From Fictibacillus enclensis (GTDB taxonomy: Bacteria; Bacillota; Bacilli; Bacillales; Fictibacillaceae): a stretch of 64,000 bases of DNA. Positions 239 through 55,429 of this stretch are shown here, piece after piece (position 1 is the first letter of the stretch; every line of letters starts with the position of its first letter). The stretch spans positions 62,001 to 126,000 of the forward strand of contig NZ_KQ758621.1 of NCBI RefSeq assembly GCF_001457035.1, in the 5' to 3' direction. A program made the position numbers and the translations under genes. A model generated the notes under the pieces. The model saw nothing but the letters and a program-made list of their open reading frames with translations. It made no database searches and was not told the DNA's origin.

Positions 239-322
239 GAATTTGCGGGCCGGTTTACGGGGTTTTCGGGCAAGTTTCAGCATTTCCCGGGCAACTTTGC
301 GAAATTTCCGGGCAGGTTTGTC
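239..322 (-). repeat. 21-bp-period tandem array, family A, copy 1
   Basis: Four consecutive degenerate 21-bp units (302-322, 281-301, 260-280, 239-259 read on the minus strand) share the core AAAnnTGCCCGGAAA. The array lies just past the terminator of the HAD gene, in the same direction as that gene. In one minus-strand frame every unit reads as a Lys/Arg-rich heptad of the form K-x-A-R-K-x-x with no stop. No ribosome site is visible, so translation is not assumed. The second copy is at 37103-37228. The remaining sequence from 1 to 238 shows no gene I can support. Confidence 0.75.
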
Positions 323-353
323 GAATCGCTACCCCGTCCTCCCCTATCAAACG

Positions 354-25321: not shown

Positions 25322-25535
25322 TGGAAGCGGTTGATTTTCGTTACAAGATGCTTGCTTTCCTAGGGCGGGCGCTGAGCCTTACCGGCGTAAACGCCTACTT
25401 TACCGGCGTAAACGCCTACTTTCTCGTCGCAAGCTCCTGCGGTAACGGCTCGAGCGCCTCCATGGTCTCATCTGTCCCGCTTTTCCCTAAGGAGTCTCGC
25501 ACCTTGCACTACGATCAACTTGTCATTGAAGATTT
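25322..25535 (+). repeat. Dispersed intergenic repeat, copy 1 (inverted partner at 29831-30045)
   Basis: About 215 bp homologous over its length to the reverse complement of 29831-30045: shared blocks include GGTTGATTT, GATGCTNGCTTTCC, GGGCGGGCG, ACCGGCGTAAACGCCTAC and GAGTCTCGCACCTTGCACTA. It resembles the GC-rich intergenic repeats common in Bacillus genomes. This copy carries an internal 21-bp duplication (25381-25401 and 25402-25422). It occupies the untranslated leader of the kdgK operon. No ORF with a ribosome site is seen in 25270-25715. Confidence 0.85.
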
Positions 25536-37089: not shown

Positions 37090-37102
37090 GTGGAGTGAAT
37101 TC

Positions 37103-37228
37103 GACAAAGTTGCCCGGAAATTCGCCAAAGGAGCCCGCAAACTCATGAAACTTGCCCGGAAAAGCCAGAAAGTTACCCGCAAATCTCTCAAGCCTGCCTG
37201 CACCCAAAAAACTCGCCCGAATCCCGAG
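37103..37228 (+). repeat. 21-bp-period tandem array, family A, copy 2
   Basis: Five to six 21-bp units (starting 37103, 37124, 37145, 37166, 37187, 37208) with core AAAnnTGCCCGGAAA, the same family as 239-322. The array begins 13 nt after the GntR terminator in the sense direction of that gene and reads in frame as heptads of the type (K)xARKxx, without stop. The opposite strand reads as F-x-G-x-F heptads. Confidence 0.78.
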
Positions 37229-44821: not shown

Positions 44822-44947
44822 CGGAACAACTGTTTTACTCACGGTTTCGTGCGGATTACTCACGGATTTTTTTGTCTTACTCTCCGTTCTCCTCCAATTA
44901 CTCACGGAAATCAGGTCATTACTCACCATTTTTTAACAATTACTCAC
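44822..44947 (-). repeat. 21-bp-period tandem array, family B, copy 1
   Basis: Six 21-bp units on the minus strand, each opening GTGAGTAA or a one-base variant (unit ends at 44947, 44926, 44905, 44884, 44863, 44842). A leader ATGAAAATGATTGG (from 44965) starts exactly after the T-run of the lacZ terminator. One frame reads VSNxxxx heptads with a single stop in unit 1. No Shine-Dalgarno site. The 363-nt interval between the oxidase and lacZ genes contains nothing else apart from the terminator. Confidence 0.85.
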
Positions 44948-44965
44948 CATACCAATCATTTTCAT

Positions 44966-44997
44966 AAAAAAAGATGACGCAGAGATTCCGCGTCATC
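44966..44997 (-). terminator. Intrinsic terminator of lacZ
   Basis: GATGACGC/GCGTCATC stem and seven T residues on the minus strand; its T-run touches the repeat array leader. Confidence 0.93.
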
Positions 44998-45010
44998 CAA
45001 TTCGTTTTAT

Positions 45011-48220
<3,210 letters not shown>

Positions 48221-49591: not shown

Positions 49592-49659
49592 GTTCCTCTT
49601 CCTTTCCCGTTCGTTTTTTTACTATAAAAAGACTCATGTTTTTTACCCAATAAATTTTC

Positions 49660-49724
49660 ACAAATAAAAAACCCATATTTTTTACAAATAAAAAACCCAT
49701 ATTTTTTACAAATAAAAAACCCAT
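49660..49724 (-). repeat. 24-bp tandem repeat between T-box and ilvA
   Basis: Two full units (49660-49683, 49684-49707) and a 17-nt partial unit (49708-49724). Minus-strand units begin ATGGGTTTTTTATTTG and in one frame read MGFLFVKN repeated. They copy the T-rich 3' end of the T-box terminator, so they probably arose by slippage or duplication of that tail. No ribosome site precedes the first ATG. Confidence 0.8.
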
Positions 49725-54678: not shown

Positions 54679-54804
54679 TGATGGGCGGCGTTTACTCACG
54701 ACTTTTGTTGGCTTACTCACGGAATTTCTATCATTACTCACCATTCGATTACATTTACTCACGGAAACTCCTATTTTACTCACCGTTTTGCCTGCTTTAC
54801 TCAC
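54679..54804 (-). repeat. 21-bp-period tandem array, family B, copy 2
   Basis: Six 21-bp units on the minus strand opening GTGAGTAA (unit ends 54804, 54783, 54762, 54741, 54720, 54699). The leader ATGAAAATGATG (from 54822) matches that of the copy at 44822-44965 and follows the GNAT terminator by 11 nt. The frame from 54822 is open for 64 codons and reads VSKxxxx heptads. No ribosome site. Confidence 0.87.
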
Positions 54805-54832
54805 CAAACACATCATTTTCATAAAACGGCCC

Positions 54833-54858
54833 AAAAAAATACCGTTCGCAAACGGTAT
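54833..54858 (-). terminator. Intrinsic terminator of the GNAT gene
   Basis: ATACCGTT/AACGGTAT stem with GCGA-type loop and a T-run on the minus strand. Confidence 0.9.
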
Positions 54859-54871
54859 TTCTCTCACTCTG

Positions 54872-55429
54872 CTATTCTACTTGTTGCGTGCGTTCCTCAT
54901 ACTCCTCCTTAAGAATGCTATAGTATAAAGACGTAACTACTTTCCCATCCACACGCTCCAAAATTTTCTCTTGGCTGAACCGGAAATTGAAGCCGCATTT
55001 TTCATTCACCCGTTTGGAATTATGGTTAAAATCAAAATGGCCACACCATACAATATCGAGGTTCAGCTCTTCAAAACCAAATTGAAGCACAGTTTTCACC
55101 GCTTCAGGGACATATCCATTTCCCCAATATGCCGGATTCAGCACATAACCTATTTCTTTTTGATTTAGATATACCAGGGACAAATCAGGTGTCCGATCAT
55201 GCAGGCCGATACTGCCGATGACCTTTCCTTCTGAAAGCAGCTCAATCGCCCAGGTCTCATCTTCTTTTAAAAATAAATCTATGATTTCCTTGCTTTCCTC
55301 TTCGTCCTTATGAGGCTTCCAGCCGGCATTCGGTCCCACCTGCTCACTCTTCGCATACTCGTATAAATCTTTGTAATCGGATGGTTTCCAAGGTCTCAAG
55401 CGCAATCTCTCAGTCTGCAATTCTTTCAT
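54872..55429 (-). CDS. GNAT-family N-acetyltransferase (RimJ/RimL-like)
   Basis: A 185-residue acetyltransferase of the Acetyltransf_3 type: TERLRLRPWKPSDYKDLYEY start, IGSIGLHDRTP, IGYVLNPAYWGNGYVPEAV (acetyl-CoA loop) and HFDFNHNSKRVNEKCGF. It transfers an acetyl group from acetyl-CoA to a protein N-terminus or small molecule; the substrate is not evident. ATG has GGGG upstream. Single gene. Confidence 0.88.
   Translation of the reverse strand: MKELQTERLRLRPWKPSDYKDLYEYAKSEQVGPNAGWKPHKDEEESKEIIDLFLKEDETWAIELLSEGKVIGSIGLHDRTPDLSLVYLNQKEIGYVLNPAYWGNGYVPEAVKTVLQFGFEELNLDIVWCGHFDFNHNSKRVNEKCGFNFRFSQEKILERVDGKVVTSLYYSILKEEYEERTQQVE

Follow-up and report, generated by a model that had tools for sequence, protein, structure and literature searches.

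Arrays of six phased words past gene ends in Fictibacillus: a possible DNA platform for a word-specific protein

Plasmid iterons and centromeres of the parC type are built from direct repeats of about 20-22 bp that are set in helical phase, are present in several copies and load protein cooperatively. CRISPR arrays consist of repeats of about 23-50 bp separated by unique spacers of about 20-70 bp. REP elements are dispersed, intergenic palindromes with species-specific words that often lie past gene ends, alternate in orientation within BIMEs and usually exceed 100 copies per genome, and REPs and RAYT, their reader, co-evolve and are species-specific (PMC2817692). For E. coli, a study of DNA gyrase describes strong sites, BIME-2 among them, of about 130 bp and phased composition, a gyrase motif with phased 10-bp G/C variation built from 130-bp neighbourhoods, and an enrichment of sites past highly transcribed operons and those for rRNA (PMC6379681). 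The centromere-like ram sites of RacA in B. subtilis are dense near the origin, are also dispersed, and occur many times per chromosome (PMC6593407). In the Beggiatoaceae, a single short word, TAACTGA, is abundantly repeated in direct orientation between genes (PMC4679880).

The arrays reported here belong to the known general kind of intergenic repeats. RacA/ram sites, the gyrase motif and REP/RAYT are each a partial analogue, and of none do the arrays display all of the defining features. Like REPs, the arrays are extragenic, often past gene ends and dispersed, with species-specific words and a reader that is here suspected; unlike the palindromic hairpins of REPs, they are non-palindromic direct repeats, usually of exactly six units of 21 bp, that fold less stably than chimeric controls and number at least 4-26 per genome. 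Strong gyrase sites share with them a length of about 130 bp, phased composition and a position downstream of transcription units, rRNA operons included, whereas the strict 8-bp word of the arrays, which differs between congeneric species, sets the two apart. Density near the origin, dispersal and a multiplicity of copies per chromosome are shared with ram sites, and the abundance of intergenic repeats of one short word is shared with the Beggiatoaceae. The 8-bp word and 21-bp period fall outside the dimensions of CRISPR arrays, and in contrast to iterons and parC-type centromeres the arrays are dispersed on the chromosome behind genes. A full-text literature search, with subscription papers and preprints outside its reach, gave no description of a six-fold 21-bp word array among the papers listed, and the six-fold, phased, word-switching design is apparently new, at least to us.

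Two arrays of this family are present in the window, that is, the whole 64-kb stretch of DNA analysed (Table 1). The earlier note on this DNA had described the array behind lacZ as six GTGAGTAA-headed units of 21 bp, preceded by a leader that follows the T-run of the lacZ terminator without a gap. The spacing is indeed exact, with words starting at 44947, 44926, 44905, 44884, 44863 and 44842 on the minus strand, but the fourth word reads GAGAGTAA, so that only five of the six are exact; the leader ATGAAAATGAT starts at 44965, the first base past the T-run end at 44966, just as had been described. The word GTGAGTAA occurs 11 times in the window, five times in the lacZ array, six times in the second array and nowhere else, and its exact pairs at 21 bp number eight against 0.00 expected from 100 dinucleotide shuffles. 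Pfam identifies the four genes that flank the two arrays as those of a beta-galactosidase, a thiamine-pyrophosphate (TPP) enzyme, an acetyltransferase and a GFO/IDH oxidoreductase; no replication or partition (rep/par) gene is among these four, and these two arrays therefore lack the neighbour by which an iteron or replication origin is recognized.

Table 1. Positions of the features discussed, in window coordinates, and the array loci compared at junctions common to several genomes
Feature	Position	Strand	Remark
lacZ-type beta-galactosidase, 1064 aa, upstream of array	45011..48205	-	Pfam PF02836, PF02929
lacZ intrinsic terminator: 12-pair stem, loop of 3, T-run	44966..44998	-	stem 44998-44972, T-run end 44966
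leader ATGAAAATGATTGGTATG, directly 3' of lacZ T-run	44948..44965	-	leader columns compared over 23 arrays
unit 1: GTGAGTAA TTGTTAA AAAATG	44927..44947	-	A-type tail
unit 2: GTGAGTAA TGACCTG ATTTCC	44906..44926	-	T-type tail
unit 3: GTGAGTAA TTGGAGG AGAACG	44885..44905	-	A-type tail
unit 4: GAGAGTAA GACAAAA AAATCC	44864..44884	-	one mismatch in word
unit 5: GTGAGTAA TCCGCAC GAAACC	44843..44863	-	
word 6: GTGAGTAA	44835..44842	-	next 13 bases without conservation
thiamine-pyrophosphate enzyme, 576 aa	42923..44653	-	downstream codirectional gene
GNAT acetyltransferase ORF, ahead of second array	54872-55429		
GNAT acetyltransferase terminator (hairpin, T-run), just ahead of second array	54833..54859	-	simple hairpin/T-run rule
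leader ATGAAAATGATGTGTTTG of second array	54805..54822	-	
second array of the GTGAGTAA family	54692..54804	-	six perfect words
'Family A' array, word GCCCGSAAA, 21 bp	37098..37220	+	directly after terminator T-run
second 'Family A' array, 21 bp	240..335	-	shortly after terminator
junction 1, GTGAGTAA/GCAAGTAA			W2/L180/L185 with L146/L158
junction 2, GTGAGTAA/GCAAGTAA			L195/L049 with L139/L172
junction 3, GTGAGTAA/GCAAGTAA			L193 with L140/L170
junction 4, GCAACTAA in G004, GCAAGTAA in G002/G006			L186 with L151/L164

The window also carries the 'Family A' arrays, in which GG and GC partly alternate within the word; relatives are found in G006, for example GCCCGTAAA, and 'Family A' is probably a sister family of the GTGAGTAA arrays, possibly within the same superfamily. 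A near-perfect 21-bp repeat of the TTACCGGCGTAAACGCCTACT type, with an internal palindrome (25379-25422), is a different kind of 21-bp repeat, and a look-alike with more copies lies near the origin of the window's genome (L230, about 14662). A near-perfect 24-bp tandem repeat of 2.9 copies (49655-49724) adjoins a minus-strand T-box leader (RF00230, 49730-49956).

The genomes compared are seven of the genus (G000-G006), of which G000 is the window's own and G003, G004 and G005 appear to be F. fluitans, F. solisalsi and F. terranigra, and one of another genus of the family (G007). Column comparison of 23 distinct arrays, gathered from the window's genome and from matches in named genome records, yields a plan of about 135 bp in which a leader (about ATGAAAATGATGTGTTTG) is followed by six 21-bp units, each composed of an 8-bp word (GTGAGTAA), seven free bases and a 6-base tail. 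The tails switch between an A-type (AAAAYG) and a T-type (ATTTCC): 58 adjacent pairs alternate and 10 do not, a value that none of 5000 permutations reaches, so that the true period is 42 bp, i.e. a dimer repeated three times. Exactly six units are present in 71 of 81 arrays listed from six genomes, orthologues included. The spacings in this list measure 21 bp in 394 of 402 cases, 20 bp in five and 22 bp in three, a census that is biased because the arrays were collected by a 21-bp rule; the 21-bp patterns and the tolerance of up to two mismatches per word somewhat favour both this census and the word conservation figures given below. The usual number of six and the unconserved N7 spacers do not fit a VNTR or microsatellite, whose copy number is free to vary and whose units are nearly identical.

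An unbiased scan admitted any 8-mer in four copies with up to one mismatch and variable spacers, at periods 17-25, over 864 kb composed of the window and four 200-kb samples: G006 near the origin and at mid-chromosome, G000 near the origin (one stretch with a known array left out) and G000 contig C1. Counted by strand, there were 23 detections at period 21, 14 of them in the G006 origin sample, seven in the window, one on C1 and one at G006 mid-chromosome, the last of which looks like a coding coiled coil; the G000 origin sample gave none, and periods 17-20 and 22-25 gave none anywhere in the 864 kb. Plain autocorrelation assigns 9 of 43 hits to lag 21 and eight to lag 42 in the G006 origin sample, with no excess in the other three 200-kb samples (lag-21 hits 1, 2 and 1). 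The proposal in the earlier note that every word lies on the same face of the DNA is thus supported by the exact 21-bp spacing, and the random indels that it had named as contrary evidence have not broken the phase, which holds in nearly all of the spacing census and is the only period that the unbiased scan detects. The nucleoid or anti-readthrough protein to which the note ascribed cooperative binding would be a candidate.

Most arrays are placed with regard to the gene in front of them. A left ORF was called for 78 arrays, and 57 of these lie behind an ORF on the same strand. When the ORF ends within 130 nt the figure is 42 of 53 (P 1.1e-5), the other 11 being behind an opposite-strand ORF, and when only G000, G005 and G006 are counted, which removes most orthologous doubles, it is 24 of 29 (P 2.7e-4); the ORF calls behind these counts were mechanical, and some neighbour genes are wrong. 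A terminator, taken by a simple rule as a hairpin plus T-run, precedes 34 of the 42 same-strand close arrays, compared to 113 of 247 control gene ends from which the next ORF is 150 nt or more away. Over all arrays the rule is positive in 47 of 81, and it is negative in five of the ten arrays of F. terranigra. In G006 the first word of an array is found 72 nt past the end of a 5S rRNA gene. The two associations on which the earlier note had staked its proposal, with terminators and with gene strand, are therefore both upheld.

The arrays are predicted to be intrinsically curved. With wedge parameters of the Bolshoy type, the ratio of contour to end-to-end length is 1.343 for arrays versus 1.114 for dinucleotide shuffles and is higher in 59 of 68 arrays; over 118 bp it is 1.261 for native arrays and 1.156 for stretches 150 nt past the array start. 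When the spacers are random and the period is varied, curvature peaks at 21 (1.221) against 1.139 at 20 and 1.172 at 22. The A/T oscillation has its amplitude of 0.277 at 10.5 bp, with 0.229 at 5.25, 0.112 at 21 and 0.079 at 7, and on phasing alone the arrays display the phased A/T-G/C composition over about 130 bp that marks BIME-2-like elements. An array could be a wrapped segment of about 130 bp that draws DNA gyrase downstream of transcription units, as BIME-2 does in E. coli. The length of about 135 bp, the 10.5-bp phasing, the curvature and the position past gene ends and an rRNA operon agree with this, but gyrase is conserved, and an exact 8-bp word that varies among congeners would be superfluous for it; we consider this explanation quite unlikely.

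As an alternative, the earlier note suggested a peptide made by readthrough only, with VSNxxxx heptads in the frame of the lacZ array. This frame is present; it is, however, interrupted by a stop in unit 1 of the lacZ array, and over the 23 arrays it contains more stops than column shuffles (23 versus 16.3). Coding is rejected, since stops are not significantly fewer than in 1000 column shuffles of the 23 arrays in any of the six frames, and no frame is kept against stops as it would be in the gene of a heptad-repeat protein; the readthrough peptide thus finds no support. An RNA structure is likewise unsupported, as the folds of 18 native arrays are, on either strand, weaker than those of 60 sets of chimeras with swapped spacers (z +2.2 and +1.6), and Rfam at gathering score matches only the T-box in the window and nothing in the array. 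It is very improbable that the arrays act in readthrough transcripts, whether as unstructured protein-binding RNA or as heptad peptides. Their strand polarity with the upstream gene would suit such a role, as would the antisense LLTxxxx frame, which is free of stops in 17 of 23 arrays where shuffles average 14.5 (P 0.15), but no frame is significantly depleted of stops, the native folds are the less stable ones, a flexible RNA has no need of an exact 21-bp phase, and most arrays near a gene end lie past the terminator.

Selection can be followed in 14 orthologous six-unit pairs from the sister species G002 and G006. Substitutions affect 5 of 672 word positions versus 42 of 490 free bases (N7), 30 of 420 tail positions and 21 of 252 leader positions, the leader count being inflated by pairs with one altered leader, and 547 of 7602 fourfold-degenerate sites in genes that flank eight of the 14 pairs. 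The word is therefore held about ten-fold tighter than fourfold-degenerate sites, and the free bases match the neutral rate of those sites; since tails and leaders also change at about that rate, the word alone is clearly under selection between these two genomes. At the greater distance between G000 and G003, two pairs have 11 of 96 word positions and 20 of 70 free bases substituted. The words of L124 in G004, by eye at the same lacZ junction as the window array, are damaged, and two units are missing.

The reading that we prefer, with a probability of roughly 0.4, is that the array is a fixed-size platform of non-coding DNA, on which six 8-bp words on one face of intrinsically curved DNA would be read by a putative word-specific protein as the boundary of a transcription unit. 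Protein-bound DNA, as opposed to RNA, is favoured by the exact helical phase, the curvature, the usual size and the selection on the word, and since congeners differ in the word, a dedicated reader is a better candidate than gyrase or HU on their own. Here, a candidate sequence-specific DNA-binding protein would recognize the word and load cooperatively, either on six sites or on three 42-bp dimers, and a specificity of this putative reader that differs between lineages would explain why each array family within a genome has one word. With less assurance, the complex may form a boundary at the ends of transcription units that stops residual readthrough, torsion ahead of RNA polymerase, or both. 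A role tied to transcription-unit ends is suggested by the polarity at close gene ends and by the post-terminator placement, as the majority share the strand of the preceding gene and lie just past its terminator, and also past a 5S rRNA gene. Intergenic repeats of Gram-positive bacteria are mostly unexplained, and these arrays are unusually legible in that their units usually number six and are in helical phase, and the selection on their word can be measured.

The distribution of arrays along the chromosome is uneven. In G006, where dnaA is located at C2:1078 and the main contig measures 4.35 Mb, 15 of 18 strong array loci lie within 500 kb of dnaA (P 1e-7), a test for which 23 strong matches of 42 (E up to 1.6e-9) were kept, forming the 18 loci, and 19 weaker ones dropped, some of them far from the origin. 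If the terminus is assumed to lie opposite, 16 of the 18 strong loci are on the leading strand. The nine GTGAGTAA arrays of G000 are on contigs C3-C6, with dnaA on C3, and none is on the 2.04-Mb C1, and of the ten array loci on the 3.62 Mb of G007, nine lie no more than 0.8 Mb from dnaA and the tenth is at 2.26 Mb. Polarity with the gene and polarity with replication can be told apart only where the two disagree. Ten arrays oppose replication (four in G006, six in G007); the four that have an ORF end within 130 nt all run with that gene, and the other six disagree with a left ORF on the opposite strand at 153-247 nt, so that the two polarities are not cleanly separated.

Such origin-proximal enrichment is a property of ram-like sites, and the main rival to a transcription-unit boundary is an organiser or anchor of the origin domain, in which the arrays would load or tether a nucleoid or segregation protein, as ram sites do RacA in B. 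subtilis, and mark the origin half of the chromosome. The clustering in all three genomes favours this explanation, which we regard as possible though doubtful. It predicts neither the enrichment behind terminators nor the polarity with the upstream gene, and the clustering itself may be explained by rRNA operons and highly expressed genes, in which origin regions are rich. Moreover, ram sites are single motifs, unlike the six-fold arrays, and they are not known to be tied to terminators. Origin clustering nevertheless suggests a role in the origin domain and counts against a role in readthrough alone, which does not predict it; the boundary of our preferred reading would operate mostly in the origin-proximal chromosome.

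The word itself is variable between and within genomes, and five of the six genomes in the 81-array list have more than one. G002 and G006 have the same leader, the same six units and a mixed tail alternation, with GCAAGTAA as the main word, and G003 and G004 have GCAAGTAA, GCAACTAA and GCAAGTAT arrays besides GTGAGTAA. At least six arrays of G006 have GCATGTAA or GCACGTAA, five of them behind a flank common to an rRNA operon. Within G006, a 23S-5S rRNA end is followed at L137 by two arrays, with the words GCATGTAA/GCACGTAA and GCAAGTAA, and the upstream flank of L137 recurs with both word types at L138, L153 and L154, three arrays being present in L138. A five-unit GTGAGTAA array of F. terranigra (L041) is followed directly by another leader-like stretch with GCAAGTAA words behind it, which places two word types in tandem at one junction. 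The A-type units of G002 and G006 are often TGTCGAACC, which contains TGTCGAA, presumably a Spo0A box and possibly there by chance.

Flank comparison reveals three junctions at which the word is GTGAGTAA in G000 but GCAAGTAA in G002 and G006 (junctions 1-3 in Table 1), and at two of these GTGAGTAA is also present in G003/G004 or G005. Spacer-plus-tail matches at the four junctions of Table 1 amount, in order, to 27-31, 27-33, 34 and 24-25 of 65, compared to a null of 604 other pairs with a mean of 23.8, s.d. 4.7 and 95th percentile 31; the best comparison at junctions 1-3 is 1.5-2.2 s.d. above this null and junction 4 is near it. These matches suggest that the word changed in place at common junctions, for which the re-arrival of an array at the same junction may be an alternative.

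Arrival by copying is also the essence of a selfish origin, in which non-autonomous arrays would be copied by a domesticated transposase, the word co-evolving as in RAYT/REP and insertion being favoured just past terminators. The words are species-specific, several word families are present per genome, and two arrays of F. terranigra (L035 and L043) are alike by eye over the first half with unmatched flanks, all of which would be expected from such copying. We consider it unlikely, because words are kept at orthologous sites, which selfish copying alone leaves unexplained, and because the arrays are not palindromic, unlike REPs, and the window array has no plasmid or phage match by blastn, by which a currently active mobile element is also rejected. 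Exact triple-word patterns in viral contigs amount to 2 and 9 stretches; the five of these 11 that were read comprise two copies of the same palindrome cluster TTACTCAC-GTGAGTAA, two coding-like repeats by eye and the ambiguous L255, and the leader is absent from the 60 bases before the match in all five. Four GATAGTAA arrays of G007 (L299, L300, L306 and L307) have the same sequence downstream (AAGTTGATTTCTTCCGAAATTCACTCCC...) and look as though each had been copied along with its tail.

Extended beyond single loci, the preferred reading leads to a more tentative proposal, which we advance with some reserve. The arrays may constitute a previously undescribed chromosomal address system of Bacillales, in which six-word arrays on curved DNA would mark the ends of origin-proximal transcription units and a fast-evolving putative DNA-binding protein, or its paralogues, would read a lineage-specific word, most often G-NN-AGTAA; when its specificity shifts, arrays at many loci would change their word together, partly in place. 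The swap of words between sister lineages amounts to a natural experiment, by which the reader could be found through co-variation and a simple pull-down, and the arrays offer a testable connection between the ends of transcription units, the topology of DNA and the organisation of the origin domain.

The phylogenetic distribution of the arrays is broad and patchy. The window's genome has nine GTGAGTAA arrays, with 30 exact word pairs and 44 when up to two mismatches are allowed, compared to 0 exact and 5 near matches of a reversed control pattern. Named genome records contain 36 pattern stretches, of which 12 are from Fictibacillus (F. terranigra 10, F. solisalsi 1, F. fluitans 1) and the remainder are mostly other kinds of repeats by eye; a 20/21-bp array in Filobacillus lies directly behind a gene terminator. 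A sequence-only model built on 18 six-unit arrays matches six of the seven genomes of the genus, with no match in G001. With 150 candidates scored out of some 800-900 in each genome, the counts in the six-genome list, 4-26 arrays each, are lower bounds. Across the family, the R1 array model matches 16 of 34 genomes at E <=1e-4, and most of nine matches read from other genera are intergenic-looking 21-bp arrays with other words, L202 looking coding.

The order surveyed, which we take to be Bacillales, is represented by 397 genomes in 135 genera. Four copies of G-NN-AGTAA at 21 bp, one mismatch allowed, are found in 42 genomes and 23 genera, compared to 6 genomes for a reversed control. No G-NN-AGTAA array is present in the other 355 of the 397 genomes, so the function must be dispensable or otherwise met there. 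Among 25 G-NN-AGTAA loci that were read, several lie past a terminator by eye, strong 42-bp alternation is seen in L258, L266, L275 and L276, and near-identical repeats or probable coding sequence account for some of the loci (L257, L265, L274). At L271 of G406, arrays of mixed words are embedded in a higher-order unit of 82 bp, which is repeated at least seven times among the matches listed.
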